Shown in pieces: positions 1-54,781 of a stretch of 64,000 nt of DNA (position 1 is the first letter of the stretch; each line of letters starts with the position of its first letter). Both the position numbers and the translations under genes were made by a program. The stretch is taken from contig NZ_CP047952.1 in assembly GCF_014279875.1 (NCBI RefSeq), forward strand, positions 1,860,001 through 1,924,000, read 5' to 3'. Under the pieces are notes generated by a model. The model was not told the origin of the DNA. It was given only the letters and a program-made list of their open reading frames with translations, and ran no database searches. This stretch comes from Synechococcus sp. MEDNS5. GTDB lineage: Bacteria > Cyanobacteriota > Cyanobacteriia > PCC-6307 > Cyanobiaceae.

Positions 1-164
1 TGCTTTGCAGACCCTGTACTGTCAAATAGCTGATCGAATATAGATGGATAAGTAATTTTCATAAAATTAAAGACTTCCTCTAAATTCGAAGCAGAAATAA
101 CTGGCTTATCCTGTAAACCAAGCTCTTGCATATAGATTTTGGGGAGGTCTATTGTGCAACTCAT
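1..164 (-). CDS. MoaD/CysO-like sulfur-carrier protein (3' end outside window)
   Basis: Reading leftward from ATG at 164 there are 54 uninterrupted codons to the window edge, so the gene is partial. The visible protein has the N-terminal half pattern of ThiS/MoaD/CysO ubiquitin-like sulfur carriers: a first strand ending in IDLPKIY, then a segment NLEEVFNFMKITYPSIFDQL followed by a short acidic turn and a glycine, as in CysO and archaeal MoaD. Family members carry sulfur as a C-terminal Gly-Gly thiocarboxylate; that end lies outside the window. It is divergent from tfuA-ycaO, which fits a dedicated sulfur donor for thioamidation. The fold assignment is by eye on about half a protein. Confidence 0.6.
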   Translation of the reverse strand, partial: MSCTIDLPKIYMQELGLQDKPVISASNLEEVFNFMKITYPSIFDQLFDSTGSAK

Positions 165-227
165 AAGATTTAAAATTTTTACTAATATAGCACACAAAGA
201 CTAGACTCAACCGTCGAAGTGCAACAC

Positions 228-255
228 TTGTATATGAATGGGCTTGTGTTAATAT
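228..255 (+). promoter_or_regulatory. possible promoter of the tfuA operon
   Basis: TTGTAT at 228-233 and TAATAT at 250-255 are separated by 16 bp and would start transcription about 20 bases before the TTG start of tfuA. The whole 165-278 gap lies between divergent genes, so it should hold promoters for both directions. In DNA this AT-rich such matches are frequent. Confidence 0.3.
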
Positions 256-278
256 AAATTTGTTTATTCCTTCATTTT

Positions 279-974
279 TTGATCAACCCAAAAACAGCGG
301 TCTACATAGAAAGTACATTTAATAAAAATTTTCTTCCTAAATTAAATGGTGTTGACTATTTACCTGCTGTAAAAAAAAATGATATTTATAGAGATGCAGA
401 AAAATATGATAGATTTCTAATAGTAGATGGAGTATTTGCAACCTCTAGAGCTGTTTGGCAACGAGAAATAATACATGCAATAACAATAGGAAAAACTGTA
501 CTGGGTTGTTCTAGTATAGGCGCACTAAGAGCTGCAGAACTAGGAGTTCATGGCATGATAGGGAGTGGATGGGTATACAAAAATGTTCTAAGTGCAACTA
601 TTGAGGGCGATGATGAGGTTTCATTGTTATATAGTGTTGATCCATCTGGCAACATTATTTCGTATTCAGTACCAATGGCAACAATAATGTGGATTTTGTC
701 TTCAATATATGGACAGCATTATTTATCTGATATCAATGCAGCAAAGTTTCTTAACCGGATCAAAAGCAAGCCTTTCAATGAACGTACTTTTTCATACATA
801 TTAAATGTAGCGAATAACATGCTACCCTTATCGGTCGTCAATTTACTGAAGTTTCGTTTGCAAAAAAAAGAATATGATATAAAGTCACTTGATTTTATTA
901 ATTTACTAGGTCGACTATATAATAGAGACTTGTCGCCACTTTTAGAGACAGTAGAGAACTTATATTATGAATGA
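279..974 (+). CDS. tfuA: TfuA-like protein, partner of YcaO
   Basis: TfuA proteins act with YcaO enzymes in peptide backbone thioamidation; a characterised member hydrolyses thiocarboxylated ThiS to deliver sulfide. The 231-aa product shows the family signature: a DVFRxA-like IYRDA near residue 37, then RFLIVDGVF (about 45-53), a W-x-x-E-I stretch, and the GCSSIGALRAAELGVHGM core (about 78-95) followed by EGDDEVSLL. No ATG is available in frame after the upstream stop at 255; TTG at 279 is the best start (ATT at 258 is the alternative). It overlaps ycaO by 8 bases, so the two are probably translationally coupled. First gene of a six-gene AT-rich operon. Confidence 0.9.
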   Translation: MINPKTAVYIESTFNKNFLPKLNGVDYLPAVKKNDIYRDAEKYDRFLIVDGVFATSRAVWQREIIHAITIGKTVLGCSSIGALRAAELGVHGMIGSGWVYKNVLSATIEGDDEVSLLYSVDPSGNIISYSVPMATIMWILSSIYGQHYLSDINAAKFLNRIKSKPFNERTFSYILNVANNMLPLSVVNLLKFRLQKKEYDIKSLDFINLLGRLYNRDLSPLLETVENLYYE

Positions 975-2085
975 GCTCAGCCAAGTAGAAAAAATACTTA
1001 AGCGGTATTTGCCAGAAAATTTAGCGAACTTATTTAATCGTGCCTGTATTAATGCAGAAATCACTAGACTCTCAAGAATAACTAAACTTGATAAAACAAA
1101 TGTAGAAATTTGGAGTGCGTGTAGACCAAAAGCATTTATGTGGCAAGTATCGGCTGGAAAAGGATTTACAAAAAAGCAAGCAATCATAACGGCAATAATG
1201 GAAGCATTAGAAGGATATGTATGTGAGTCATATTTAAATTCTTATCCTTTAGATGTAACGATAAATCCAGCAAATCCTATTTCACTGATTCATTTAAAAA
1301 GTGAGTCGAAGAAGCTGTTGGGAGTTACTCCAATAATAAATAAAGAAGAAATAACTTGGATTAAAGCAAGAGAAATTAAAAGTGGAGAAGATGTATATGT
1401 TCCACTTTATTGGGCATACCTATCAAATAATGCGTCAAAATTTGGGATGGTAACCAACGGGTTGTCAGGTGGTTTAAATAACAAATCGGCAATAAGACAT
1501 GGAATATGTGAATTAATAGAAAGACATTATATATCATCAATCTTTGAAAAAGGCGCCGCCAATAAAAATGTGGTCAAGAAGATAAATATTAGAAGTGTAA
1601 TTACACTATTAGAACAATCCTTAAACTTTCAAGACGAGAATTTATTTTGCATTAATTTTATAGTGATAACGACGTCAAAAGTACCAACAATTTGGTGTAT
1701 AATATTTGATGAATCTCCTCTTTCTCCAAATTTATCCGTGAATTTTGGAAGCAAATCATCAATATCTCTTGAAGATGCAGTCATTGGTTCCTTTACGGAA
1801 GCATGCCAACAGAGAGCATCACAAATCCAGGGTGTAAGAGAAGACCTATCTGATCACATAGCTATACCTTGCTCAGCCAAGGTAAAAAGGTTGAAAGATT
1901 TTATAAACTCTTTGCAAAGTGTGTGCATAGACGACTTAGAATATAATAGTAATTGCGATCCATTGGAAGGTCTACCTGGCCCAATTTATCAAATACCTAT
2001 ATTCTCCAAGCTCTCACATATAGAAAATATATTTTTTTACAAGCACGTTGCACCTAAAGCCACATTCAAACAGGGTTTATTTTGA
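967..2085 (+). CDS. ycaO: YcaO-domain peptide thioamidation/cyclodehydration enzyme
   Basis: YcaO enzymes activate backbone amides with ATP, then add a side chain (azolines) or sulfide (thioamides). The 372-aa protein has the first nucleotide-binding block SAGKGFTKKQAIITAIMEAL (62-81) with its paired acidic residues, a second block around residues 163-190 (NGLSGGLNNKSAIRHGICEL, then IERH), and a third acidic block near residue 278 (EACQQR). The C-terminus is not the Pro-rich tail seen in azoline-forming YcaOs. With TfuA upstream and a sulfur-carrier gene divergent, thioamide formation is the preferred prediction. The core peptides have Thr/Ser but no Cys, so azoline chemistry on Thr/Ser cannot be excluded. 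Confidence 0.92.
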   Translation: MNELSQVEKILKRYLPENLANLFNRACINAEITRLSRITKLDKTNVEIWSACRPKAFMWQVSAGKGFTKKQAIITAIMEALEGYVCESYLNSYPLDVTINPANPISLIHLKSESKKLLGVTPIINKEEITWIKAREIKSGEDVYVPLYWAYLSNNASKFGMVTNGLSGGLNNKSAIRHGICELIERHYISSIFEKGAANKNVVKKINIRSVITLLEQSLNFQDENLFCINFIVITTSKVPTIWCIIFDESPLSPNLSVNFGSKSSISLEDAVIGSFTEACQQRASQIQGVREDLSDHIAIPCSAKVKRLKDFINSLQSVCIDDLEYNSNCDPLEGLPGPIYQIPIFSKLSHIENIFFYKHVAPKATFKQGLF

Positions 2086-3239
2086 TGAAGAGAATCACGA
2101 ATTACTCCCAGTTTTATCTATCAAGCGAAAAGTATAACTTGATCAAATACTCTTCCTTATTGCAACTTAAGAATATATTAAAGGAGGCAAAGAGTAGAGG
2201 ATTAGATGTTCGACACATAGGCTCGTCCCATTCCTTGTCTACATGCAATTTGCCAATTGAAAATGAAATTTTATTGAAATCAAATATATTCAATTCAATA
2301 CAATTAATTAAAAAATCAACAATACGCGTAGATGCATCTGCTAAATTGTGGAATATTCAGAGCAAGTTATCTAAAGAAAATCTCGAACTGCCAGTAATCA
2401 ATGGTGGTGATGCATCACCAACAGTTGGGGGATTTATTTCGGCCGGAGGGATAGGCAAAACTGAACCAGGAAAAGAAATGAAAGCTGGAAGATCTTGTGT
2501 ACATGGCGGATTTTGGGAAAATGTTACACAAATCAGGTATCTTAATGGTCAAGGAAAACTCTGTACCTCAAATCCTAATTCATCAGACTTTAAGTACCTT
2601 TTTGGATCAAGGGGGCAGTTTGGTATATTTATAGATGCTGATTTGAAGATTGTGCCAACGAGTAGTAATCATTTTAATAATATGCAGTGTACAGCAGAAA
2701 AGTCAGCTAGTGAGTTTAGTGAAAACAAGATTAGAACGCTATGGGTGACTTTTTTTGTTTCTCCCGAACAGGAAGAAAAGTCATGGAATTTATTAGAGGA
2801 ATGGTATTTAAATTTCAGAAACATAATTAGACCAGTTGATAATGCTAGATGGGCAGGTCCTATTTATAATGGGGCTCCCATTGGTTTTGACTACGTTATC
2901 AGCTATAAATCCTTTAATCCACCACTAGTTTATTCAAAACAATCAGACTTTAAAGCTCTTGGAATTGCGTTTACGACTGAAACTGGTAATTTTAATACAA
3001 ATAAACTTTTAGCATATGCTATGAAAACCATTTACGACTATGCCCTCGAAAACTCAATAGAATTATATTCATCTGTTGAGAATATTGTTAGTTCTTATTC
3101 GGCACGATTAAGGTATTGCGAATCAATATTGAATAATGCATTGTTACTTAGAGAGAAAAATCATTGCTCAAATTTTTTAAACAATGGTTGGTTTGACTTT
3201 AGTAAAAAGTCAAACTCTGGCTTGGTAAGGTTCTTTTGA
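2085..3239 (+). CDS. FAD-linked oxidase (PCMH-type FAD-binding domain)
   Basis: A 384-aa protein of the vanillyl-alcohol oxidase/GlcD superfamily. Residues about 20-200 form the FAD domain: RHIGSSHSLS near residue 44 contains the His that in relatives carries covalent flavin; then GGDASPTVGGFISAGGIG (about 105-122) and a GSRGQFGIF motif near 180. The C-terminal half, the substrate domain, is divergent. ATG at 2085 overlaps the ycaO stop (TGATG). Position inside the operon suggests oxidation of the modified peptide, for example dehydrogenation of a ring or side chain; the substrate is not visible from sequence. Confidence 0.82.
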   Translation: MKRITNYSQFYLSSEKYNLIKYSSLLQLKNILKEAKSRGLDVRHIGSSHSLSTCNLPIENEILLKSNIFNSIQLIKKSTIRVDASAKLWNIQSKLSKENLELPVINGGDASPTVGGFISAGGIGKTEPGKEMKAGRSCVHGGFWENVTQIRYLNGQGKLCTSNPNSSDFKYLFGSRGQFGIFIDADLKIVPTSSNHFNNMQCTAEKSASEFSENKIRTLWVTFFVSPEQEEKSWNLLEEWYLNFRNIIRPVDNARWAGPIYNGAPIGFDYVISYKSFNPPLVYSKQSDFKALGIAFTTETGNFNTNKLLAYAMKTIYDYALENSIELYSSVENIVSSYSARLRYCESILNNALLLREKNHCSNFLNNGWFDFSKKSNSGLVRFF

Positions 3240-3240
3240 A

Positions 3241-4206
3241 ATGACAATACCTAATGCAAGAGAATTGGAGATCAAAGAATTATCTTTTTGCAATAATTAT
3301 ATTTTATCTGGCCAGGCATTTATTCAAAATGCAACTAAATTAATTAATAAACATGATGACAAAGACCATTCCTTGAGAATTTTTGTTGAAGATTGCAGGA
3401 AATTTGTTAAAAACATTCAATCTCAACGTGATTGTCAAGGCCGTCTTAAAAGTGAATTGTTATCACTATATTCAAGAGCAGAAAGCTTTGATGGAATTAA
3501 ATACCCACTTTCAAAAAGCTGGTTATATCATGCGGAATCGTTATTTTATTTCTGTAATGGGCAAGGTCAACAATCATTAAAATCAATCCATGAGTCAATT
3601 GAAAATGATTCGTATTTATACACAAAATACCATGATCTTTACTTTTTTATTGATAGTCATATGATGTTATTAAGCAGGCTGATCTCCGTATCTGCGAAGG
3701 AAAAGGATTACATGTTGTTTGAGGAGTCATGCAATTTTATGTTTAAAGCGTTCTTTACGAATAAATTTTCTATGCAATCTGAGTTTCGATGTTTTGAGAT
3801 TCAATCGAAAATAATTGATAGGACTAGCACGAAACGCTTACGTTGGATGCTATGTCTACTTACTAATCAAGCTCTATCATATGCCGTTACTTCATATACC
3901 TGTCGATTATGTCTACTCAACTCATTGCAGAAATATAAAATGAAATATAGGATTGCAAAAATCCTTGCCCAAACGTTTGAATGTCTTACCAGTAATAATT
4001 GTTTTAATTACGATATATTCTCAATTAAAAATTGTTTTCCATATAATTTATGGATTATTCCTTGTGTTGTTTATTCTAAAGAAGTCAAGCATAACCATAA
4101 AGAAAGGGTTGATTATATAAATTCAATAAATTTAAATTCGTTTCACCACCATATTATACCACGTCATTTATACTCCTTCATGGTGTCAGATGAAAAATTG
4201 TTTTAA
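3241..4206 (+). CDS. unknown 321-aa operon protein
   Basis: I do not recognise this protein. It is predicted largely alpha-helical with no obvious signal peptide, membrane span or catalytic motif. The middle (about residues 95-180) alternates amphipathic helices in a way that resembles tetratricopeptide-like scaffolds. Cysteines are scattered rather than arranged as a metal site. It begins one base after the oxidase stop and its own stop overlaps the sulfotransferase ATG (TAATG), so it is co-translated with the RiPP enzymes. A peptide-binding or scaffold role is only a guess. Confidence 0.75.
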   Translation: MTIPNARELEIKELSFCNNYILSGQAFIQNATKLINKHDDKDHSLRIFVEDCRKFVKNIQSQRDCQGRLKSELLSLYSRAESFDGIKYPLSKSWLYHAESLFYFCNGQGQQSLKSIHESIENDSYLYTKYHDLYFFIDSHMMLLSRLISVSAKEKDYMLFEESCNFMFKAFFTNKFSMQSEFRCFEIQSKIIDRTSTKRLRWMLCLLTNQALSYAVTSYTCRLCLLNSLQKYKMKYRIAKILAQTFECLTSNNCFNYDIFSIKNCFPYNLWIIPCVVYSKEVKHNHKERVDYINSINLNSFHHHIIPRHLYSFMVSDEKLF

Positions 4207-4961
4207 TGGAAAAAACTACCATTCTAGCGTTGCCACGCAGTGGAACCACCTCTATATTCTCAATACTTGAGAATTTTGGATCGAAAAATGAATATTTGGA
4301 GGAAGAATCAGTAGATATTTTTTCAAGGTATAGATTGAATGGCAATGCCAATAATTTTGATAAAATTTTAATTGATCATGTGAAGAAAAGATGGATGTTA
4401 TCTAATATGAAAGTAGATGCAGCGAGCTTTAATTTTATGTGTCCTAGTCATATTCATGAAGTTTATCCAAATATGAGATATATATATTTGCTGAGAGAAC
4501 CTATAAGCTGGATTGAATCATTTGTATCAATGCTTCTCTATTATCGAACTATCTTTGGGAGTCAAGAAATGCCAATATGGATGTCAAATTATGGAAAAAT
4601 TTATTCATTATCATTTGATTGGGAAAAATTATATGAATGCACTCTAGAAACAAGAACACCATATGCAGAACTTTTAATAAAAGATTTGATCAATTTTTGG
4701 TATACAGAACATAAAAATCTTCTTTCTTTTTGTAAAGATAAAAATACACTCTATCTTGAAACAAATATGATTTCAAATTCCTTGGGTTCAATTGGAAATT
4801 TTCTTGGCATAGATACGAGCTTATTGTCGAAAAATACACATGTAAATAAGGGTAGGGGGAAAAAATATTTTCTCTCAATTTCAGAGAAGCAGTATATTAA
4901 AAAAATAGCTAATGCTATTTTAGAACATTACTCCTTTCTTCGAGAAAATCAGAGTTTATGA
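4206..4961 (+). CDS. sulfotransferase family protein
   Basis: Sulfotransferases move a sulfonate group from PAPS to hydroxyl or amino groups. The 251-aa protein carries the 5'-phosphosulfate loop LPRSGTTSIF at residues 9-18 and the 3'-phosphate-binding segment RYIYLLREPISWIESF at 91-106, with Arg97 and Ser101 in the expected places. The C-terminus has the RGKK-type basic motif that closes over the nucleotide in this family. It overlaps the next gene by 4 bases (ATGA). In this operon it may sulfate Thr, Ser or a hydroxylated residue of the core peptide, or a carrier; the acceptor is unknown. Confidence 0.85.
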   Translation: MEKTTILALPRSGTTSIFSILENFGSKNEYLEEESVDIFSRYRLNGNANNFDKILIDHVKKRWMLSNMKVDAASFNFMCPSHIHEVYPNMRYIYLLREPISWIESFVSMLLYYRTIFGSQEMPIWMSNYGKIYSLSFDWEKLYECTLETRTPYAELLIKDLINFWYTEHKNLLSFCKDKNTLYLETNMISNSLGSIGNFLGIDTSLLSKNTHVNKGRGKKYFLSISEKQYIKKIANAILEHYSFLRENQSL

Positions 4962-6028
4962 ATTTCAAATCAATTACTGAAATTTTAGCTTCTCATAAAT
5001 TCTTAAATATTGCTGGGGATTCTAAAGATGTCTATTCATTATTTTTGTCAGGTTTTTCTCCTTCAATATTTCAGTTCTCTGGGATAGAATTAGATTTATA
5101 TGATAAAAATTTAATAGCAGACTTGCTGCTAGAGCTTAAGCCATCAACTTTAAGTTGGTCCCCACAAATATTTAAATATGGATTTAATCTCCCGCGGCAT
5201 TCAAGTGATATTATTTTAAGTATACTTTCTAGCTCACAATGCAATGTTAATATTAGAAATATTTGGTTGGAGTATGACTGGTCATCATTTAATAATAATG
5301 ATTTTGCTTTGATTACACCGTCCATATTTGTTGGAACAAAAAATATGGAAAATAATATCAGTGATGAATTTTCTGCATTAAATACCTTAAATCACATTTT
5401 TCCATCTGTCCCTTTTAAAAATATTACTTGGATATTGGAAAAAGCTAACAAATACGGTCTCAAGTTAACACAAGCTGGATATATGCAGAGTAGGAAAATA
5501 CCATCAACAAGATTAGTTTTTACTCACACTGATTTCCAGTCCATCACTTTTTTTTTAAAGTCTATTTATCTACCAATGCTACATGATAAGCATTTTGATA
5601 CCTTTTTAAGATTAGTACAGCCGACGCTTCTTGCTGTTGGATTAGATATTAATGATTCAGGTAATCTTAATTTAGTGTATGGCGTTGAAGTATATAAACC
5701 TTGGATGGATAAAGCTGAATGGTTAACTATGTTAAATGCTATCAAAGCTATCTATGGTCATTCGATAAAGTTGGATGATTTAAGCAATCTGTTTATGGAT
5801 AAGCTATCACTTCCGCCTCATGTTCACAACAATCCATACCATTATATTAAAGATGAGCACAAAGTGTTTGCAATTCAATCTTATATGTCCATTCATCATA
5901 TAAAATTTTCTTTTTCACCACATACATTTTTATCGAATGGTCCTAAAATCAAAGCATATATTGGTTTTCTTTTTCCACAATTACTTGAACACCAAGATCA
6001 ATTATATTTATCAGAATCATTTAGCTAA
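4958..6028 (+). CDS. unknown 356-aa protein, last gene of the operon
   Basis: No family name can be given. The protein has no signal peptide and reads as a mixed alpha/beta soluble enzyme. The second half repeats a beta-rich style: LLAVGLDIND (about 227-236) then LVYGVEVYKPWMDKAEW, and near the C-terminus HIKFSFSPHTF followed by KIKAYIGFLF (about 326-335). From memory the KAY segment resembles an unnamed protein family near cyanobacterial peptide clusters, but this is weak. The ATG overlaps the sulfotransferase stop, so it belongs to the same transcript. A novel tailoring enzyme or peptide-binding partner is possible. Confidence 0.75.
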   Translation: MNFKSITEILASHKFLNIAGDSKDVYSLFLSGFSPSIFQFSGIELDLYDKNLIADLLLELKPSTLSWSPQIFKYGFNLPRHSSDIILSILSSSQCNVNIRNIWLEYDWSSFNNNDFALITPSIFVGTKNMENNISDEFSALNTLNHIFPSVPFKNITWILEKANKYGLKLTQAGYMQSRKIPSTRLVFTHTDFQSITFFLKSIYLPMLHDKHFDTFLRLVQPTLLAVGLDINDSGNLNLVYGVEVYKPWMDKAEWLTMLNAIKAIYGHSIKLDDLSNLFMDKLSLPPHVHNNPYHYIKDEHKVFAIQSYMSIHHIKFSFSPHTFLSNGPKIKAYIGFLFPQLLEHQDQLYLSESFS

Positions 6029-6603
6029 TCTGCGCCTTCTTTTCTAAATTTGTTTAAATGTCATTGATATTTGATAATAACCTATATTGTTATATACGCT
6101 TTGATTCGAAAATTAATTATCTGGTTTTTCTATTCCATCATACATTATATAGCCTCTAATTCATGTTTGTTGACTTAAGAAAATTTATGATAAGCATCTT
6201 CGTTATTCTATAAAGTGTTGGCAACTGTGAATTTGATTTCACATTCGGATTGACTTATTAAATCAATTTTTTTGAAGTAAATGTTTTAAGCAATAATAAT
6301 CAATCTATGCATAACAAAATCATTAAATCTCCTACTCGTATATACTCGCATAAGAAGGTAGTATTTAACTACATATTTTAGTTGGAAAATCCAACCCAAA
6401 TCGTTTGGCTGAATTGCCATACAGTTATCTCAAAAAGATTAGTATGCTATAAAATATTATATTTATATGGTAATATGTGAAGAAACTGCTTTATGTTAAA
6501 ATGTTTAATTTAGATTTATTTATTTTTCGCAAAAAATTTAATGCGCCTTTATGCGAGCTCTGGTCAATTCCTGAGAATTAAGTATTTAAAAATACATTCG
6601 TTG
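6029..6603. other. long AT-rich intergenic stretch before the precursor genes
   Basis: About 575 bases with no convincing gene on either strand. It follows the enzyme operon and precedes the precursor promoter. I see no clear hairpin plus T-run terminator for the operon, only many AT-rich direct and inverted short repeats. A 24-codon frame from 6307 lacks a ribosome-binding site and is not called. Confidence 0.5.
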
Positions 6604-6632
6604 TTGCATGCATTGCGCAAACTCTCTATATT
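6604..6632 (+). promoter_or_regulatory. candidate sigma-70 promoter of the precursor genes
   Basis: TTGCAT at 6604-6609 and TATATT at 6627-6632 are separated by exactly 17 bp. Transcription would start near 6640, leaving a leader of about 20 bases before the ATG at 6659. No strong purine-rich ribosome-binding site precedes the ATG, which is common in cyanobacteria. Having its own promoter lets the precursors be transcribed independently of the enzymes. Confidence 0.5.
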
Positions 6633-6658
6633 GCTAGTGCTACGCTTTCATTGCAGCT

Positions 6659-6958
6659 ATGGCCTCTCAAGTACAAAGCTTTTTTGACAAAGTCAATAGC
6701 GACGCCGCGCTTATCGCAAAAGCAAAAGCTGTTGGTTTTTCTGATTTCCCTAAGATTGTTGACTTTGCTAAAGAGTTAGGTTTTACGATAACTACAAAAG
6801 AATTGGAAGATCACTTTAAAGAATCACTTGGTGATGCTGCTGATCTTTCTGAAGCTGATCTGAGTGGCGTCGCTGGCGGAACAGCAACAGCATTGGCTGC
6901 TGCTGTGGTTGGTGCCGGTGCTGGTGTTACAACAACGACTCAAGGTTCAGGCTGGTAA
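6659..6958 (+). CDS. RiPP precursor peptide 1, Nif11-type leader
   Basis: A 99-aa substrate peptide. Residues 1 to about 55 match the Nif11 leader family (FFDKVNSDAAL, then an IVDFAKELGFTITTKEL block). The leader closes with LSGVAGG, a double-glycine cleavage site ending at residue 74. The predicted 25-residue core (75-99) has no Cys: an Ala/Gly/Val-rich half, then four Thr (91-94) and the tail QGSGW. Absence of Cys excludes ordinary lanthipeptide rings. Thr/Ser and backbone amides are the available targets for the neighbouring YcaO-TfuA, epimerase, oxygenase and sulfotransferase. The second copy at 7017 differs at only two residues. Confidence 0.92.
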   Translation: MASQVQSFFDKVNSDAALIAKAKAVGFSDFPKIVDFAKELGFTITTKELEDHFKESLGDAADLSEADLSGVAGGTATALAAAVVGAGAGVTTTTQGSGW

Positions 6959-7016
6959 CCATTAATTCACTACTCAAGTACACAAGGCTCATTTTGTTCC
7001 ACTTTTTACACTAATT

Positions 7017-7316
7017 ATGGCTTCTCAGGTACAAAGCTTTTTTGACAAGGTCAATAGCGACGCCGCGCTTACCGCAAAAGCAAAAGCTGTTGGTTTTTCT
7101 GATTTCCCCAAGATTGTTGACTTTGCTAAAGAGTTAGGTTTTACGATAACTACAAAGGAATTGGAAGATCACTTTAAAGAATCACTTGGTGATGCTGCTG
7201 ATCTTTCTGAAGCTGATCTGAGTGGCGTCGCTGGCGGAACAGCAACAGCATTGGCTGCTGCTGTGGTTGGTGCCGGTGCTGGTGTTACATCAACGACTCA
7301 AGGTTCAGGCTGGTAA
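7017..7316 (+). CDS. RiPP precursor peptide 2, near-identical tandem copy
   Basis: A 99-aa paralogue of the peptide at 6659. I count seven base differences over the 300-bp gene; only two alter the protein: Ile19 to Thr in the leader and Thr92 to Ser in the core. The core change keeps a hydroxyl residue in the Thr-rich tail. The 58-bp spacer between the copies lacks a clear terminator, so both probably lie on one mRNA, which ends at the hairpin 7342-7371. Sequence just after both stop codons is also duplicated, showing the repeat unit extends beyond the gene. Confidence 0.92.
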   Translation: MASQVQSFFDKVNSDAALTAKAKAVGFSDFPKIVDFAKELGFTITTKELEDHFKESLGDAADLSEADLSGVAGGTATALAAAVVGAGAGVTSTTQGSGW

Positions 7317-7341
7317 CCATTAATTTGCAACTTAAGAACAT

Positions 7342-7371
7342 GAGGTTGATCATTATCAGCCTCTTTTTTTT
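7342..7371 (+). terminator. intrinsic terminator of the precursor transcript
   Basis: GAGGTTGAT and ATCAGCCTC pair over nine positions (one G-T wobble) around a CATT loop, followed by eight bases containing seven consecutive T. It lies 25 bases after the second precursor stop and before the broken third copy, so the third copy is outside the main transcript. Confidence 0.8.
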
Positions 7372-7379
7372 ATCTAGTC

Positions 7380-7475
7380 ATGGCTTCTCAATTACAAAGC
7401 TTTTTTGACAAAGACATTTTAGCTACTGCACTTAACAAGAAGCAAATCTGTTTGTTTTTCTGATTTTCCTTAATT
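7380..7475 (+). pseudogene. degenerate third precursor copy
   Basis: Starting at ATG 7380 the DNA repeats the first part of the precursor gene: the peptide begins MASQLQSFFDKD, matching ten of the first eleven leader residues of the intact copies. After about 16 codons a short deletion and a frameshift break the frame; the segment matching the GFSDF region is still legible in another frame around 7449-7470, but a stop occurs at 7461-7463. No GG site or core is present. It is a truncated remnant of a third tandem copy. Confidence 0.85.
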
Positions 7476-7692
7476 TGGCAGGAGTGTTTAGCAATGCAAG
7501 TATTATAAATATGAATCAATCTGTTGTTTCTGAATATTGCAAAGAGAATTATCATATAACAATGAGTCTCGCATACAAGAAATGATGCATAACACTATTG
7601 TTTAACAGACCGATGAACAGCGAACAATATCTCCTTTTCCTCATTGATTAATGATTGTTAATTAAGCAATCCTGGTCAATCAAGAAATATGG
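7476..7692. other. intergenic stretch between precursor remnant and epimerase
   Basis: About 220 AT-rich bases with no supported gene. Similarity to the precursors is lost after about 7475. The right end carries the promoter of the radical SAM gene. Confidence 0.5.
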
Positions 7693-7721
7693 TTACAGAA
7701 GCGTAAAGATGCTAGTATAAT
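7693..7721 (+). promoter_or_regulatory. candidate promoter of the epimerase gene
   Basis: A perfect TATAAT at 7716-7721 lies 33 bases before the ATG at 7754. The best -35 position, TTACAG at 7693-7698 with a 17-bp spacer, is poor. The exact -10 hexamer is the main support. Confidence 0.45.
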
Positions 7722-7753
7722 GTTATACAAATTATTTAAATCGAAGCATCATC

Positions 7754-9331
7754 ATGCAAAATAATCCGAGTCAAAACATAAATGTGACAAATTATAGACG
7801 CTCGAATGAGCCTGTGCAGTTTATTGAATCTTTGACTTTGGATCAAAAAATAATTATTGCCGAAATAAAACGCTTCCAGGAATGGTACGAAGGTTCGGCT
7901 GAATTTAGAGATCAATGTCGTACATCTCAACTATCATCCTTTTGGTTGAATCGTCTTATGAATCTGGGAGTACGAAGAGAGGTCATTGAAGTGATGAGCA
8001 CTTTGTATAGTTCTCCCAAAATACATCCAATATTTGAGGTACTGAATAATGTCGAAGAGAGCCATCAGCATTTGCTCGAAGAAATAGATCAAAAAGTTTC
8101 AAACCAAATACTTAGATTGCATTTCAAGCTAACTTTACTTAAAAATAGATCGTTGATTAAACATCAGAATTGGACTTTGAATAAATTCAATGGTGATTCT
8201 CCATATTTCACATGGCGTCAACGTAGAATTTTATCAATTCAGAGTGAACTTGGATTTTATGGAACGAGTATTGACCACCCAACATTTGCAATAGAATTAG
8301 CAGTTGGCTGTACAGTTGGCTGCACGTTCTGTGCATATGATGCACAAAAGCTCGAGTCTATTTTTGATTTCAATAATAACCATAATCTTGATCTTTTTAA
8401 AGCAGTTGCTCGGTCGTTGCAACTCATACTAGGTGATGGATGTGGTGGGGGTATGCTGTATTATGCTACAGAACCGAATGACAATCCCGACTATATTAAT
8501 TTTCTGGAAACATACTATCAAATAACAGGATATAAGCTTTGCACATCTACAGCGAGATATAATATAGACTGGTTAGAGGATTTGATTAAATTTTACTCAT
8601 TTCCAGAGCCCACATTTTGGCCACGAGTAAGTGTGTTATCACCACATATTATGGAAAAAATGCATAGGCACTTCTCTCCTCTTGAGTTCATTTATCCTTC
8701 GATTCTCGCTCAATCTATTGAAATAGAAGATGAAAGAGCCAAGGTTCCTGGTGGTCGTGAAAAGTTTGGCATGAAAGTATTGTCTCAAGTAAAAGATGCA
8801 CGTCAATACACATCTGCAGATCAAGTTGATTATTCTCTAATTCCGCAAGGATCAATTGCTTGTGTAACAGGTTTTCGAATTAATATGGTCCAAAAAACAA
8901 TCACCTTAACAAGTCCTTGTTATACATCCTATAAGTGGTCTCATGGTTATCGGAATTTTGGAACTGTTTCCTTTTCCACACCCGATTCTGTATATCCTGC
9001 ATTCATAGATTTAATTAATCGCTTTATTCCAAATTCCACCGATAATCATCTAATTTTTTCCTGGCGAGATGATCTTGATTTTCGTCTCTTTGAAGATGGT
9101 TTTGAACTCGTATCACCCTATTTATTTCATTCATTTAGAGGTTCTGAATTTTACAAGGCAATTGGTTTAATATATTCAAAACACAGACAACTTTTATTTC
9201 AAGAAATGCGTGACAAAATTACTGCCAATGTACCTGGTTCAAGCATATTAACCGCTTCATTCTTGTTGAAAAGATTTTTTGATGCTGGTCTTATCAATGA
9301 AGCAGTCTATTATGATCCTTCAACCACTTAG
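7754..9331 (+). CDS. PoyD-like radical SAM peptide epimerase
   Basis: A 525-aa radical SAM enzyme of the RiPP amino-acid epimerase family (PoyD, OspD), which converts L- to D-residues in ribosomal peptides. The cluster motif is CTVGCTFC with Cys186, Cys190 and Cys193 (CX3CX2C). Family blocks follow: YYATEPNDNPDYINF (about 236-250), CTSTARYN (263-270), WPRVSVLSPH then FSPLEF (289-312), and SIACVTGFRINMV (367-379) then SPCYTSYKWSHGYR (387-400). PoyD uses a C-terminal Cys as hydrogen donor; Cys370 and Cys389 are candidates here. The N-terminal about 150 residues are helical and probably bind leader. It sits downstream of the precursors with its own promoter. Confidence 0.9.
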   Translation: MQNNPSQNINVTNYRRSNEPVQFIESLTLDQKIIIAEIKRFQEWYEGSAEFRDQCRTSQLSSFWLNRLMNLGVRREVIEVMSTLYSSPKIHPIFEVLNNVEESHQHLLEEIDQKVSNQILRLHFKLTLLKNRSLIKHQNWTLNKFNGDSPYFTWRQRRILSIQSELGFYGTSIDHPTFAIELAVGCTVGCTFCAYDAQKLESIFDFNNNHNLDLFKAVARSLQLILGDGCGGGMLYYATEPNDNPDYINFLETYYQITGYKLCTSTARYNIDWLEDLIKFYSFPEPTFWPRVSVLSPHIMEKMHRHFSPLEFIYPSILAQSIEIEDERAKVPGGREKFGMKVLSQVKDARQYTSADQVDYSLIPQGSIACVTGFRINMVQKTITLTSPCYTSYKWSHGYRNFGTVSFSTPDSVYPAFIDLINRFIPNSTDNHLIFSWRDDLDFRLFEDGFELVSPYLFHSFRGSEFYKAIGLIYSKHRQLLFQEMRDKITANVPGSSILTASFLLKRFFDAGLINEAVYYDPSTT

Positions 9332-9512
9332 AAGCCTTTATAATAATTGTTTTTATCCCAACAAAACATATCAAGCAACATTCAAGTCTTTATTTTTCTA
9401 TATTAGAGAGCCAATCGCAATGGCCGGTGATCTCCTCTTCACCGCCAGCACACATGAATCCAAAGGTCCCCTACTTTAGGTGAAAGGGCTATCGATACAT
9501 AACAGCTCATTA
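9332..9512. other. intergenic stretch, composition changes toward GC-rich
   Basis: No gene supported. The first 90 bases are AT-rich like the island; from about 9410 the composition becomes balanced. This is the left flank of the recombinase remnant. Confidence 0.45.
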
Positions 9513-9764
9513 CTAATCGTTGGAATAGCTATCAAAGATTCGCCGCCGCAATAATGTCTGCCGTTGTGTTGAGTTTGATCCTGGCATAGCTCCCACAAGA
9601 TGCACCTTAATTGTGTGTCCCATGGCTTCGTTGAAATTGGCAACAGGGACATTCGCTGAATGCATCCCCTTGGCGTAGCGATGCCTGAATGAATAAGTCG
9701 TCATCTGTAGGCCTTGATGCTCGACTTCAACGTGGATGGCAGCCCATTCCTTGCGGCAGCGCAG
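9513..9764 (-). pseudogene. tyrosine recombinase (integrase) C-terminal remnant
   Basis: Read leftward, the frame gives TTYSFRHRYAKGMH followed by VANFNEAMGHTIKVHL, the C-terminal block of cyanobacterial tyrosine recombinases, with the R-H-R of the catalytic box and the later G-H-T. Upstream in the same frame (to about 9764) a fragment LRCRKEWAAI is still recognisable, then stops appear. The region expected to hold the catalytic Tyr is out of frame or altered after VHL. No full-length gene is possible. It is a decayed mobility gene at the island's right side, between the epimerase and the JmjC gene. Confidence 0.7.
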
Positions 9765-9945
9765 TTAGATGTTCTATGCCTGAGCGCTATCGCCCTCACG
9801 ATTCAATGCCGACATTTGCTCGCCTACCTGCAAACGCGCCTGCAGATTCCAATCGAGAGTCTGAAGAAAGGGGAGTCGATCTCGAACCGCTTGAAAATAA
9901 AAAGACTAGAAGGGTTAAAAATTACGAACTCTCAGATGATTTACT

Positions 9946-10773
9946 TTACATCTCTATCGCATTGATAAGTTCTCTTAAAGCAGCTTTTCTGCTAATGCAA
10001 GAGTTTTTGCTTATCTTATAAAGCACATCTAGCGCTTGAACTTCTTCGCCTAACATGAAAGGCTTTTGATTATATTGTGAATTATAAAAGTAATTCACTG
10101 ATACACTAATTGGGCTTGAGCATTGAGCCGAATGCCACCAATACGGTGGTATAAATAGCATATCAGACTTTTCAAGCTTAACCATTATTGCTTCGTCGCA
10201 ACAATCTGTTTCTTTTTGAATAAACTCCATACTTTCTTGCTTTGAAAAGTTAAAGTCTGTGCTTTCTTCTTTTTCTCCTCTTAGATAGATTTGCGGCTTA
10301 AATATTTTTGTCAAGCTTGGCGGCGCTAAAAATATTTCCTTCTCACCGTCTAATTGAATGATAACATTGTCAACTAAGTCATAATGCCACGGCGTGGCTG
10401 CTGATTCATTTCCAATCCAAAGGTTTATATCTGCTATCTTTTCCTTGAATCCTGGCAGGAGTTTTAATTCTGAAAGCAAGCAAGAGAATTGAGAGATTTT
10501 AACTTGCTTCAAATAATAACTGTATTTTTGCCTCCTTTGACTTCCGGCTAGTTTTATTTTTTCAAGTGCTTTTGGAATTGTTTCCTGCGATAAAATCGGT
10601 TTTTGCATACAATTTTTATCAAATTTATAAAATGTAGTTTTTTCCTGGTTGCTTTTCTCAATAAAGGTGTCTAATGACCAATCAAGCGCTTGCCAGCCTT
10701 CTGCCGCCTGTTGAGCCAAAAAAGGCTCAGAAAAATTTTCAAACAAATCACTCCCTCCAATTTGTCCCAGCAT
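9946..10773 (-). CDS. JmjC/cupin_8 Fe(II)/2-oxoglutarate oxygenase
   Basis: A 275-aa protein of the cupin-like JmjC family (FIH/asparaginyl-hydroxylase type), which hydroxylates protein or peptide side chains. The metal triad is visible: His130-x-Asp132 in TPWHYDLVDN and His214 in IPPYWWHSAQ; Lys145 in DGEKEI is a likely 2-oxoglutarate ligand. The strand NLWIGNESAATPWHYD (117-132) and the IPPYWWH strand are classic. It is AT-rich like the RiPP genes and points toward them. Peptide epimerase clusters such as polytheonamide also carry Fe(II)/2OG hydroxylases, so core hydroxylation is a reasonable inference. ATG at 10773 is the only usable start before an upstream stop. Confidence 0.82.
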   Translation of the reverse strand: MLGQIGGSDLFENFSEPFLAQQAAEGWQALDWSLDTFIEKSNQEKTTFYKFDKNCMQKPILSQETIPKALEKIKLAGSQRRQKYSYYLKQVKISQFSCLLSELKLLPGFKEKIADINLWIGNESAATPWHYDLVDNVIIQLDGEKEIFLAPPSLTKIFKPQIYLRGEKEESTDFNFSKQESMEFIQKETDCCDEAIMVKLEKSDMLFIPPYWWHSAQCSSPISVSVNYFYNSQYNQKPFMLGEEVQALDVLYKISKNSCISRKAALRELINAIEM

Positions 10774-10916
10774 ATAGAAATTATTGATTTTTTTTGAAGA
10801 GCCTTAAAAAACACTTTTGCGAGATAGACCAGATCCGCCCAAGAGAGCAATGGCATCGCATCTAAAAACGAAACACCTGCCATTAGGTCTCGTAACATGC
10901 GAAAAGCCCTTTAGCT

Positions 10917-13900
10917 TCATAAGGACGCCTCTGTTGGCATTCCCCAGCCGCCGCCTCCAGGGGTTGCGATCAACAGACGATCCCCTGGCTTCACCTCACA
11001 TCGGGCGCATCCCTGCAGTTGTTCCCGTGCCCCATCCGCACGCGTGAGAATCGCAGCCCCGCAGGCACCATCCTCCCCCCCCTCGAGTCCGAACGGTGCC
11101 ACCAACCTTGAGCCCGACAGCAAGGCCGTGGTCATCGGTTCCAGGAATCTGAACTCCCGCACCAGGCCATCCCCTCCTGGCCAACGGCCGGCACCACCAC
11201 TGCCCGGACGGAATCCAAACCGCTCCAGCCTCACGGGGAACCGTTGCTCGAGGATTTCAGGATCCGTGAGCCTGGAGTTGGTCATGTGGGTCTGCACCCC
11301 ACAGGATCCGGGGAAGCCAGGGCCAGCACCGCCGCCCCCGGCGATCGTTTCGTAGTACTGCCGTCCGGCGTCGCCGAAGGTGACGTTGTTCATGGTGCCC
11401 TGCGCTGCCGCCATGGCGCCCACGGACGCGAACAGCAGGTTGCAGAGCGCCTGGGAGGTTTCCACATTTCCTGCCACCACCGCCGCAGGGGGCCTTGGAT
11501 TGAGCAGACACCCCTCCGGCACCACCAACGTCAGGGGCTGAAAACACCCGGCATTAAGAGGAATCGGCTCCTCCAGCAGGCAACGGAGCACGTAGAGCAC
11601 GGCGGCCTTGGTCACAGCCAGCGGGGCATGGAAATTGTGATCTCCCTGCTGAGAACTGCCGCTGAAATCCAGCACCGCCTGGCGACGTTGCCGTTGCACC
11701 CGCAGCGCCAGTCGCAGCCAGGCACCGTTGTCCAGCTGCACCTCGCATTGCCGGTCCTCCAGCCGATCGATCAAACGGCGAACGCTGCTGGCAGCGTGGT
11801 CCTGCACATGCTGGAGATAACGCCCCACGCGAGCCTGACCTTCCGCCTCGAGCAGCGTGTCGAGCAGCTGCATCCCGAGGTGATTCGCGGCCACCTGAGC
11901 CTGGAGGTCCGCCCAGAGCAGATCGGGAGTCCTCGGGGGGATCGGCTGGCGGCGCAACAGCACAGCCCAGCCGTCCTGATCCAGAACGCCCTGCCGCACC
12001 AGCCACCAGTTGCGCACCAGCAGCCCTTCCTCGCCGATCTGCCTGCTGAAGGGCGGCATCGATCCCGGGGTGAGTCCCCCCACATCCGCATGGTGCCCGC
12101 GGCAGGCCACAAAAGCGAACGGCACGTCGTTGCATTCGCTGAACACCGGAGTGATGGCCGTGACATCGGGCAAGTGGGTTCCGCCGTGGAAGGGGTCATT
12201 GCTGATGATCGTGTCGCCGGCCTGCAGAGCGGGGCGTTCGCCCCGGCGCACCTGCTGCAGCAGATCCGCCACCGCATCCCCCATGGAACCCAGATGAACG
12301 GGAATATGCGGAGCATTGGCCACCAGAGCCCCCTCCCCGTCGAACAGGGCACAGGAAAAATCAAGCCGTTCGCGAATGTTCACCGAGCGGCTGGTCTGCC
12401 GCAGCCGCTCTCCCATCCGTTCCGCGATCTGCATGAAACGGTGATGGAACAGGCTCAGATCCACGGGATCGGGGCTCTCCGCTGCAGCCAGGGCCGCAGA
12501 CCCCGGCAGGGTCTGCTCCATCTCCAGCAACAGACAGCTGTTCTGCAGCCTCCGGGCTGACCAACCGGGCTCCAGCACGGTTCCAGCCGTTGGATCCAGA
12601 ATCAGGGCCGGGCCCTCCAGGCGCTGCTCCAAGGGAACCTGCTCCCGTTGCACCACCGGAACGGCACACCAGCCACGCTGCGGCCAGTGCACCATGGCCG
12701 CCTCGGGGGCAGCGAAGCTCTGAGCAGCAGGTCCGGGGCGCCCGTCCCCGCTCTGCGCCTGGGGGTCCACCGCCGCCAGCACTTCCACCTCGATCCGCTC
12801 GAGCACCAACCGGGTGCGAGGGGATGGCGCATACCCGAAACGCTGCTGATGCGCCTGGGCAAACGCTGCCTGCAGCGCCTCCAGGGACGGTTGTTGCGGG
12901 GGAGGCGCCAGGGTGATGAGCAGTCCCTGTTCCGCCGCCACGTCCCGGAGTTCCAGACGGACCCGCTGCTCTCCCAGCGTCAGGGAACGGCCGCCCACCT
13001 GCTCGAGGGCGGCGTGGGCCAGGGCCAGCTCCGCTGCCACCCGTGACGGCAACCGGGTCAAACAGGAATGATCCAGAGGCTCGCGGACCGCAGCCTGACG
13101 CAGCTGACGCTGCCGTGCCTGCCCGATCCCATAGGCCGACAGCACCCCCGCCAGGGGGTGCAACAGCACCTGGCGCAGCCCGAGGGCTGATGCCATGCGG
13201 CAGGCCAGCTGGCCAGCCGCACCGCCGTAGGCCACCAGGACGCCCCCTCGGATGTCATGACCGCGATGCAGAGACACCTGACGGATGGCCGCCGCCATGG
13301 CTTCAACCGCGAGGTCGAGGGCCCCTTCCGCCAGTGCTTCCGGTGATCGCCGCAGCGAGTCAGCCAGCACCGCGAACTGCTGCCGGGTGGTGGAGAGGCA
13401 GGGATGCGCATCCCGATTCGGCCCGAACACGGCTGGGAAAGCCTGGGCCTGCAACCGGCCCAGCAGCAGATGGGCATCGGTGATGGTGAGGGGGCCACCC
13501 CTGCCGTAACAGGCGGGGCCAGGATCCGCTCCAGCCGAGCGGGGTCCCACCAGCACCCGGCCGCCATCGTGATCAATGATCGAGCCTCCACCGGCAGCCA
13601 CCGTGTGAATCGGCAATCGGGATGCCGACAGCTGCAACCCCGCGATCTCCGTTTCAGGGCTGCGGTCCCAGTCGCGATCGGCCGCCCCAGCGGGCAGGCA
13701 GAACACATCGGTGCTCGTGCCTCCCATATCCACGCCCACCATCGGGAGATGCCCCACACCGGCCTGTTGAGCCGCGGCCACGGCACCGACCATGCCGCCC
13801 GCCGGGCCGGAGAGGATCGTGTCTTTGGCCAGCAATGACGCAGGTGCCTGCAGGCTTCCGCTGGAGGTCATCACCCGCAGCCGGGGGTGTCCCTTCAGAG

Positions 13901-14579
13901 CGGCCTGCACCTGGTGGAGATAGGTCTCCAGCACCGGCCGGACGGCAGCCTCCACCAGGGTGGTCTGCCCCCTGGGAACCAGTCGGGGAAGAGGGCTCAC
14001 CTGATGGGAGCAGACCACCGTTTCAAAACCGGCGGCAAGCACCGCCTCCGCCAGAACCAGTTCATGGGCAGGCTCCCGCCACGCATGCATCAGCGCGATG
14101 GCACAGCTGCGCAGACCCTCCCGGCGATGGTCTCGCAACCGGCTGGTGAGCACGGCATCAATCACCAGAGGCTCCACCGCATCCCCCTTCGCATCGAGGC
14201 GCCCGGACACCTCCTCAACCGCCGCGATCAGCGAGGGGGGACGGGGGATCTCCAGAGCGAACAGATCCCGTCTGTGCTGATCACCAATGCGCAGCAGGTC
14301 GGCCAGACCCTTGTTCGTGAGCAGCAGAACGGGCTCGCCCTGGCTCTCGAGCAGGGCATTGGTGGCCACGGTTGTGCCCAGTCGCAGCTCCTCGATTGCT
14401 GATGGGGAGGGTGGGCCTTCCATCTCGAGGAGTGCGTGGATCGCCTCCACCGCCGGATCACCCTCCCGATCGGGCTGGACCGACAGCACCTTGCGAACGA
14501 TCAGCCCTCCGTCAGGCCTGCGGGCCACCACATCGGTGAAGGTGCCGCCGCGATCGATCGAAAACTGCCAGCGGGTCAA
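10917..14579 (-). CDS. oplaH: 5-oxoprolinase / hydantoinase A-B fusion
   Basis: A 1220-aa ATP-dependent cyclic-amide hydrolase, most likely 5-oxoprolinase opening 5-oxoproline to glutamate. Domains in order: hydantoinase A N-terminal domain ([11 protein letters not shown] at about 8-18, [14 protein letters not shown]), hydantoinase A ([13 protein letters not shown] near 280, then the GGGSI segment), a linker domain, and hydantoinase B from about residue 690 ([26 protein letters not shown], and the C-terminal [14 protein letters not shown]). Length fits the single-chain form. The TTG start overlaps the nagB stop (TTGA), so the two are coupled. Composition is GC-rich; this gene marks the return to core chromosome. 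Confidence 0.9.
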
Positions 14580-23428: not shown

Positions 23429-23500
23429 GGGCGATTAGCTCAGAGGTAGAGCACTACCTTGACACGGTAGGAGTCACTGGTTCGATTCCAGTATCGCCCA
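23429..23500 (+). tRNA. tRNA-Val (GAC)
   Basis: A complete 72-nt cloverleaf: acceptor stem GGGCGAT / ATCGCCC, D-arm with AGCTCAGAGGTAGAGC, anticodon stem CTACC/GGTAG with loop TTGACAC giving anticodon GAC, and T-arm CTGGTTCGATTCCAG. Discriminator A at 23500; no CCA encoded. It sits 28 bases before murD. Confidence 0.95.
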
Positions 23501-54378: not shown

Positions 54379-54741
<363 letters not shown>

Positions 54742-54781
54742 TTAGCAGATCACGGGGGACCTGCGAAAGGCACGACGAGAC

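Follow-up and report, generated by a model that had tools for sequence, protein, structure and literature searches.

We asked what product is encoded by a gene cluster in the complete 2.44-Mb chromosome of Synechococcus sp. MEDNS5 (NZ_CP047952.1), and from where that product would draw its sulfur. The cluster reaches into the window, the 64,000-nucleotide stretch analysed here (genome 1860001-1924000; window position + 1860000 = genome position). A preliminary description had placed at window positions 1-10773 a ribosomally synthesized and post-translationally modified peptide (RiPP) locus, in which TfuA, YcaO, an FAD protein and a sulfotransferase within a six-gene operon, together with a PoyD-like epimerase and a JmjC protein, accompany two Cys-free Nif11 precursors. 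Family matches bear out this gene set, and the thioamidation and epimerisation predicted from it are supported, with a sulfur relay and a second epimerase adding to the case. The genes at 1-10773 are real, but the locus does not start at position 1: about 12 kb more lies upstream, holding an exporter, an E1, a carrier, the second epimerase and a DUF4135 protein. We favour, with some confidence, the reading that the whole forms a self-contained RiPP island, predicted from its sequences to yield an exported peptide with backbone thioamides, D-residues and a prenylated C-terminal Trp. The probable prenylation is a modification that the preliminary description had not foreseen.

The island spans 23,095 bp (genome about 1847822-1870916) and has a GC content of 34.7%, against 60-61% around it. 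Window 1-10916 is its right part, and a further ~12.2 kb precedes the window start. Its left boundary is yebC and its right boundary an oplA-like host gene (10917..14579, - strand; syntenic with 15 same-genus loci). Among 15 same-genus genomes, drawn from 31 carrying yebC, the island proteins were without any match at this site in all 15 (tblastn, E 1e-5, 15-16 kb per site). yebC and the oplA-like gene lie on one stretch in 11 of these relatives, oplA being missing in four; the two protein matches are separated by up to about 0.6 kb in seven and by 0.7-5.7 kb in four. The gap is 27 bp in the closest relative, G096, whose YebC is 94% identical. At the left island edge, a 51-bp stretch (L005:5831-5881; L005 position + 1842000 = genome position) resembles the 3' end of oplA at window 10966-11016 (40/51 identical, E 4e-6), and is also 88% identical over 52 bp to the 3' part of oplA in G096. 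We read this edge repeat as the scar of an insertion beside oplA. Given its low GC content and its absence from the site in 15/15 relatives examined, the island is foreign and, we propose, horizontally acquired. All 18 of its listed genes are unbroken reading frames. TfuA is scarce in general, occurring in 7 of 386 cyanobacterial genomes by the Pfam model and in 3 of 200 genomes by protein search within the order, this genome counted in both. The length of the yebC-oplA gap varies among relatives, to a maximum of 5.7 kb in L109, and the site is perhaps an insertion hotspot.

Six + strand genes, from tfuA to that of a 356-aa protein, overlap or abut (window 279-6028). The first two are adjacent and both pass their Pfam cut-offs: a stand-alone TfuA of 231 aa (279..974; PF07812, 94.9 bits, cut-off 30) and a YcaO of 372 aa (967..2085; PF02624, 114.8 bits, cut-off 25.7). 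TfuA matches PDB entry 6xp8 (E 6e-17) with its GxSxGALRA stretch aligned, and YcaO matches 6pe3 (MJ1094; E 9.5e-12). The best NCBIfam model of YcaO is that for McrA thioamidation, TIGR03266 (127.1 bits, cut-off 365), and NF033432 scores 122.5 bits, under its cut-off of 235.2; since these McrA-type cut-offs are missed, the pair appears related to the McrA system without modifying McrA. The SagD azoline model scores 70.3 bits (cut-off 219), weaker than the McrA-thioamidation model. Searches of genome contigs for loci related to this YcaO or to the epimerase alignment returned nothing, which is a weak negative as only exact patterns were searched.

Two further island genes suggest how such a pair could be supplied with sulfur. 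An E1-rhodanese of MoeB/MoeZ-like type lies upstream of the window (genome 1855707-1856855; ThiF 256.4 bits, rhodanese 46.7 bits), with the rhodanese loop CKTGVRS and its C341. It scores highest with the models for MoeB with rhodanese (445 bits, cut-off 633) and for MoeZ (423 bits, cut-off 647); it passes the broad MoeB subfamily model PRK05690 (300 bits against 266), and it is 45% identical over 381 residues to the host's own E1-rhodanese. The rhodanese domain and the MoeZ-like match led us to reject it as an azoline partner. The second gene encodes a 102-aa MoaD/ThiS-like carrier (genome 1859889-1860197, or L005:17889-18197, - strand, its 3' side being window 1..197; PF02597, 24.0 bits, cut-off 22.5), which ends in PIAGG and starts 82 bp from tfuA, divergently. 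It scores 32.3 bits against TIGR01687, below the cut-off of 49.5, and its PDB sequence matches (2g1e, 3dwg_C and 1v8c) are weak, at E 2e-4 to 2e-3; 3dwg_C we take to be CysO, the partner of MoeZ. At the level of sequence, then, a GG-ended ThiS/MoaD-like carrier and an E1 to activate it, the makings of a sulfur donor, are both present. The host keeps its own ThiS beside a ThiE-like open reading frame (ORF) and its own MoaD beside molybdopterin-type ORFs, the neighbours being named from our reading of the ORFs. As the host already has E1, ThiS and MoaD, the island's E1 and carrier look dedicated, and a dedicated sulfur relay just upstream of TfuA-YcaO strengthens the case for thioamidation.

This arrangement has precedent in archaea. 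ThiS-COSH is reported to be hydrolysed by the archaeal TfuA to serve its YcaO, the bacterial RiPP case being stated as open (PMC8153245); where sulfide is not high, YcaOs that make thioamides tend to work with TfuA and a thiocarboxylated homologue of ThiS (PMC13063428); and in methanogens moaD, moeB and thiF occur near ycaO-tfuA (PMC5589413). We also looked for relay genes at nine other TfuA loci, taking ORFs from 40 aa, and found no E1 and no convincing carrier, three of these loci being short (5.6-12.5 kb). A PF02597 scan of the whole genome missed the island carrier and so under-reports such carriers; a two-sequence carrier profile has some reach, finding the host ThiS at E 0.002, with a 57-aa frame (E 0.22) as its sole other match. 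In two genomes of the same family as the host (L017 and L018), TfuA-YcaO pairs have NHLM-type exporters and Nif11-like ORFs (ending AAAACV and VAALF) as neighbours and lack relay genes.

The likely substrates are two Nif11 precursors of 99 aa each on the + strand, at 6659..6958 and 7017..7316, which pass TIGR03798 at 42.9 and 44.2 bits (cut-off 32.3). In precursor 1 the leader runs up to G74, with Gly-Gly at 73-74 and the motif L63(X)4L68, and is followed by a 25-aa core, TATALAAAVVGAGAGVTTTTQGSGW. Precursor 2 differs by I19T and T92S (98% identical; 7 nucleotide differences, 5 of them silent). Both are free of Cys, as had been described, and both terminate in GSGW, the C-terminal Trp being the sole aromatic residue of a core that is Thr-rich (VTTTTQGS) and also has an Ala/Val/Gly stretch. 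A Nif11 leader with a double-Gly end thus co-occurs with a C39 peptidase-ABC exporter (PF03412, 110.9 bits), the hallmarks of a Nif11-leader RiPP. The two intact genes were correctly described; there is also a third, decayed copy (about 7380..7480, + strand), its sequence 82% identical over 7366-7416 and 7444-7477 and its frame broken. It stands in register with the intact pair, suggesting a formerly larger tandem array. Of the nine Nif11-leader matches in the whole genome, seven lie elsewhere than in the island, those at L130, L146, L154 and L158 among them.

What might act on the terminal Trp? The 356-aa protein (4958..6028, + strand) belongs to no Pfam or NCBIfam family. A search of 386 genomes with it gave two weak matches, and through them we reached a 363-aa protein whose gene neighbours a Nif11 ORF and a P450 and which has relatives in 15 of the 386. 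The motifs WLE(F/Y)D, an MLSR..R-like hairpin, G.E, HIK and KAY are common to sixteen members and the 356-aa protein. A profile built from 13 other members picks the 356-aa protein alone out of 480 ORFs (35.3 bits, E 1.8e-9 at Z 5000), the best of 2,000 shuffled controls reaching 6.7 bits, and hhalign places it with the family at a probability of 94.9%, against 0.7% or less for nine other island proteins. Twelve columns are invariant in a 15-row alignment, including R185, K316, K332 and Y334 (invariance counted with the 356-aa protein included). We treat it as divergent within a RiPP-linked family in which a putative MppC is also found. The family is unnamed; none of the 15 members scanned is covered by a Pfam or NCBIfam model.

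The connection to Trp comes from the mpp cluster, which has one alpha-beta-beta-alpha (ABBA) prenyltransferase, MppC, which requires an attached Nif11 leader for its geranylation of Trp82 (PMC12715784; PMC11791876). One family member (L060:9035-10228) follows a precursor that agrees with MppE in every published feature compared, having 84 aa with a 77-aa leader, the core ACWRWSG, and L66, L71, W80 and W82. The other L060 ORFs fit LanM, arginases (UPF0489), FAD/terpene-cyclase-like, halogenase-like and DUF6445 proteins, which leaves as MppC candidates the family member and a helical L060 ORF of 356 aa. We take the family member as the putative MppC. Its residue 340 is Phe, as published for MppC; residue 336 is Leu and not Trp, so the locus may be from another strain or the MppC match mistaken. 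Five beta-hairpins in the family were read as an ABBA pattern before the fold-search result was read. The structure model of the 356-aa protein is poor (predicted local distance difference test score, pLDDT, 41), and with it ABBA prenyltransferases made up 14 of the 50 Foldseek matches listed, none of them significant (best E 0.52), and 39 of the 50 VIA-align entries listed, the best being CymD at Z 6.2 over residues 133-267 only, where a Z below 8 may reflect merely a common arrangement. In a control search with a 321-aa island protein, prenyltransferases were 0 of the 50 matches listed. The 356-aa protein is probably a peptide prenyltransferase and, on sequence likeness, a candidate for a leader-dependent one acting on Trp. 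We rejected it as an oxygenase or HopA1-type protein, there being no Pfam match, and the A2 profile found no match among PDB sequences. A search of viral contigs with it was empty, a weak negative from exact patterns, and a search of plasmids gave no match, demonstrably a false negative since family members are on plasmids. PHROGs matched neither the 356-aa nor the 321-aa protein.

We counted precursor-like ORFs at 18 family loci, excluding one of 36 matches for want of Gly-Gly/Gly-Ala and L062 as an overlap of L019. Such ORFs occur in 12 of the loci; 23 of the 35 ORFs end in Trp, in 7 of the 12 loci, and 26 of the 35 have Trp somewhere after the last GG. Against a Nif11 background of 30 loci the Trp-ending share is 4 of 31 ORFs, all four from one locus. 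These loci cannot be counted as independent: L059 and L061 share one genus, L160 alone contributes seven, and background L151 belongs to a family locus. L056 (five ORFs) and L064 (three ORFs) are exceptions, without a terminal Trp. The locus points to Trp-ended peptides as a substrate signature of the family. Family members neighbour PoyD-like, Nif11/NHLP, NHLM-exporter and TfuA-YcaO genes: their 20-kb neighbourhoods hold PoyD-like genes in L054 (two) and L056, which links the family to epimerase clusters, and exporter genes in L054, L055, L057, L060 and L064, and for the member in L019 a TfuA-YcaO pair lies about 7 kb away. In L054:9853-15104 the gene order is family protein, NHLP-type precursor and then two consecutive PoyD-like genes. 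The family proteins of L059:9057-10766 and L061:9011-10780, in longer frames of 569 and 589 aa, may be fusions, and each of the two loci has six precursors that end in Trp.

The island also has two PoyD-like radical SAM epimerases, 55% identical to each other. The first lies upstream of the window (genome 1857008-1858609; TIGR04517, 255.1 bits) and the second, of 525 aa, at 7754..9331 on the + strand (253.8 bits, E 3e-75). Both match TIGR04517 over its full length yet under the curated cut-off of 325, and are best described as PoyD-like, not as TIGR04517 members. The second has CX3CX2C at 186-193; this motif and also C370 and C389, candidates for the H-donor Cys, are invariant in five homologues. 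Among 201 genomes of the host's family, two have a relative of it, this genome counted, the other copy being 33% identical.

The remaining genes supply possible tailoring and export. Within the operon lie a 385-aa FAD_binding_4 (VAO-type) oxidoreductase (2082..3239, + strand; PF01565, 43.3 bits, cut-off 26.4), the 321-aa protein (3241..4206, + strand), and a 251-aa sulfotransferase (4206..4961, + strand; PF13469, 33.2 bits, cut-off 27; PF17784, 29.1 bits) with PRSGTT, resembling a 3'-phosphoadenosine 5'-phosphosulfate loop, at residue 10. The 321-aa protein is probably all-helical (single-sequence model all helix, pLDDT 49); it has no Pfam or NCBIfam match and no plasmid homologue at E 0.01, and a fold search with its poor model gave no lead. 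On the - strand at 9946..10773 is a 275-aa cupin_8/JmjC oxygenase of Fe(II)/2-oxoglutarate type (PF13621, 104.5 bits), which has HYD...WWH as in FIH and matches FIH and JMJD7-type PDB entries with HxD and the distal H aligned. Upstream of the window, a 390-aa DUF4135 protein (genome 1858655-1859827, - strand; TIGR03897, 36 bits against a cut-off of 304) resembles LanM only briefly, around the D-C-H motif (E 4e-4), and may be a LanM-dehydratase-like remnant; the full LanM with cyclase and the core Cys that mark a class II lanthipeptide are not found. Export would fall to genes for an outer membrane factor (OMF; genome 1848228-1849937, - strand), HlyD (1849908-1851311), C39-ABC (1851308-1853485) and ABC2 (1853482-1855626), all upstream of the window; exporter genes match NHLM models at 76, 631 and 522 bits, each under its curated cut-off.

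From the observed genes, families, conserved motifs, co-location and empty site in relatives, we infer the reactions, their order and their sites as follows. The Nif11 leader would recruit the modifying enzymes. The E1-rhodanese would adenylate the C-terminal Gly of the carrier and load sulfur on it as a thiocarboxylate, and TfuA would free that sulfur for YcaO, which with ATP would convert backbone amides of the 25-aa core to thioamides, most likely within the Ala/Val/Gly stretch. The two PoyD-like epimerases would create D-residues, the 356-aa protein, MppC-like in sequence, would prenylate the C-terminal Trp, and the DUF4135 protein may act on Thr/Ser as a dehydratase or a kinase. Hydroxylation, oxidation and sulfation, which the JmjC protein, FAD protein and sulfotransferase could add, are likely, with their sites unplaced. 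That all enzymes act on one peptide is a weaker claim than the preliminary description made it, as for these three it is suggested by co-location. The C39-ABC/ABC/HlyD/OMF set would cleave after Gly-Gly and then export the product.

Other explanations deserve weighing. The YcaO might instead cyclise Thr/Ser to (methyl)oxazolines, with the FAD protein as oxidase and the E1-like protein as the usual YcaO partner; the Thr-rich core would suit such an azoline/azole peptide, and YcaO-dehydrogenase-epimerase-DUF4135 clusters with NHLP leaders are known, making nostatin A (PMC11583998) and carnazolamide (PMC10676384). We consider it decidedly improbable, given the presence of TfuA, an E1 of MoeB/MoeZ type with rhodanese and a separate GG-ended carrier where an ocin-ThiF partner would be expected, and the lack of the combination of SagD-type YcaO and SagB-type dehydrogenase typical of azole/azoline (thiazole/oxazole-modified microcin or linear azole-containing peptide) loci, no SagB-type FMN dehydrogenase having turned up when 18 island proteins were scanned for families. 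A related doubt concerns the relay: the E1 and carrier might serve extra molybdopterin or cysteine synthesis, thioamidation using free sulfide or host proteins. They do sit in transcription units separate from TfuA-YcaO, and the TfuA-YcaO of the nine other loci do without local relay genes, but the divergent carrier starts so close to tfuA, both genes lie inside a foreign island otherwise of RiPP genes, and the host owns E1, ThiS and MoaD; we think this use improbable. That the cluster is silent or decaying and makes no product is, in our estimate, highly improbable: the broken precursor copy and the AT-rich, foreign nature of the island would fit it, whereas the listed genes are uninterrupted and the changes between the intact precursors are mostly silent.

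A more serious alternative keeps the 356-aa protein in the same fold family but as a non-catalytic member, its activity lost and its role one of leader binding or structure. Its strong divergence, the Val that it apparently has at the leader-binding Phe340 position of MppC (a poorly aligned region) and its lack of a conserved insertion of the family speak for this; the Trp at the end of both precursors speaks against, as do the invariant columns that it keeps, R185, K316, K332 and Y334 among them, although their invariance depends on the 356-aa protein itself. We regard loss of catalysis as unlikely, though with an appreciable chance. For the thioamidated, epimerised and prenylated product that we prefer, several observations count as adverse. 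Identity between the 356-aa protein and the family is just 16-21%, aligning it pairwise with the putative MppC gives no significant match (E 0.12), and its structure model is, as noted, poor. The cyanobactin prenyltransferases (TIGR04445) show an hhalign probability of 0.2% to it, with full-length frames used from 6 of 11 loci; on this limited test, having no profile similarity, we rejected a cyanobactin-type prenyltransferase, and TIGR04445 has no match in the host genome. The PoyD, TfuA, YcaO, E1 and transporter matches all fall under NCBIfam equivalog cut-offs (the E1 passes only PRK05690), one precursor copy has decayed, and the relay genes unseen at the nine other TfuA loci imply that an in-cluster carrier is not the rule.

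The closest known systems each share part of the island. The McrA TfuA-YcaO of methanogens, for which ThiS-COSH is the donor (Liu et al. 2021 via PMC8153245 and PMC13063428; PMC5589413), likewise has overlapping YcaO and short TfuA genes with MoeB-like E1, rhodanese and MoaD/ThiS-like genes near, and provides the best PDB sequence matches of the island TfuA and YcaO; it modifies McrA, whereas the island substrate would be a bacterial exported Nif11 RiPP, with exporter, epimerases and more tailoring. Bacterial TfuA RiPPs, the thioamitides and thiovarsolins (PMC6511847, PMC8120280), combine TfuA-YcaO with a RiPP precursor as the island does, and its Ala-rich core recalls the thioviridamide type noted in PMC10676384, but the island differs in its own sulfur relay and two PoyD-like epimerases. 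Moorena producens mpp shares the Nif11 leader with L(X)4L, a Trp at or near the C terminus and a family protein beside the precursor; it makes a lanthionine macrocycle, while the island, without LanM cyclase or Cys, has thioamidation and epimerisation genes and a distant 356-aa member. The proteusins nostatin A and carnazolamide have a PoyD-like epimerase, YcaO and LanM-like dehydratase in one cluster, as here, but carry azoles, where the island has TfuA, a sulfur relay, a prenyltransferase and a Nif11 leader. A further such system is plasmid pAB510a of Azospirillum sp. B510 (L160), with TfuA, YcaO, a family prenyltransferase, a C39/HlyD-type exporter and a LanM-like gene, seven of whose eight precursor-like ORFs end in Trp, as the island precursors do; unlike the island it has a long TfuA frame and NHLP-type leaders, and no E1, carrier or PoyD match was found in it. 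Its joining of TfuA-YcaO, the prenyltransferase family and Trp-ending precursors implies that the pairing is older than the island.

The preliminary description knew of no pathway with this combination, and we found none in the literature searched. One element of its novelty must be given up, as Nif11 precursors in TfuA clusters had already been found by genome mining (PMC8120280); the full gene set was not found described. In that paper MoeB and an indole prenyltransferase are named as TfuA-cluster neighbours in the legend of Figure 4, and the available main text contains neither 'epimerase' nor 'PoyD'. A survey of marine Synechococcus reports Nif11/cupin/epimerase clusters and YcaO clusters, its available main text being without 'TfuA' (PMC10783134). 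Full-text literature, with subscription papers mostly outside the search, gave no description of a TfuA-YcaO pair accompanied by a carrier and E1 of its own, by PoyD-like epimerases and by a prenyltransferase of this kind. Each kind of enzyme is known; the whole set was found in no other genome or paper searched. We tentatively propose, at somewhat less than even confidence, that the island is a portable bacterial pathway in which RiPP thioamidation is fed by its own ubiquitin-like carrier and E1-rhodanese, diverged from MoeZ/CysO-type housekeeping, and D-amino acids, prenyl-Trp, hydroxyl and sulfate are added to one 25-residue peptide, which would constitute a new hypermodified class. The locus would also tie an unnamed protein family to Trp prenylation and extend it to thioamide and epimerase clusters. 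Whether bacterial RiPP TfuAs take sulfur from a thiocarboxylated carrier, as the archaeal one does, is an open question in PMC8153245; with carrier, E1, TfuA, YcaO and precursor together in one foreign island, it becomes testable with five genes in E. coli.

A presumed tyrosine-recombinase remnant at window 9513-9704 was dropped, having no Pfam match. Beyond the island, the window contains a tRNA-Val at 23429-23500 and an ATPC RNA motif (RF01067, 65.4 bits) at 54677-54767 on the - strand.

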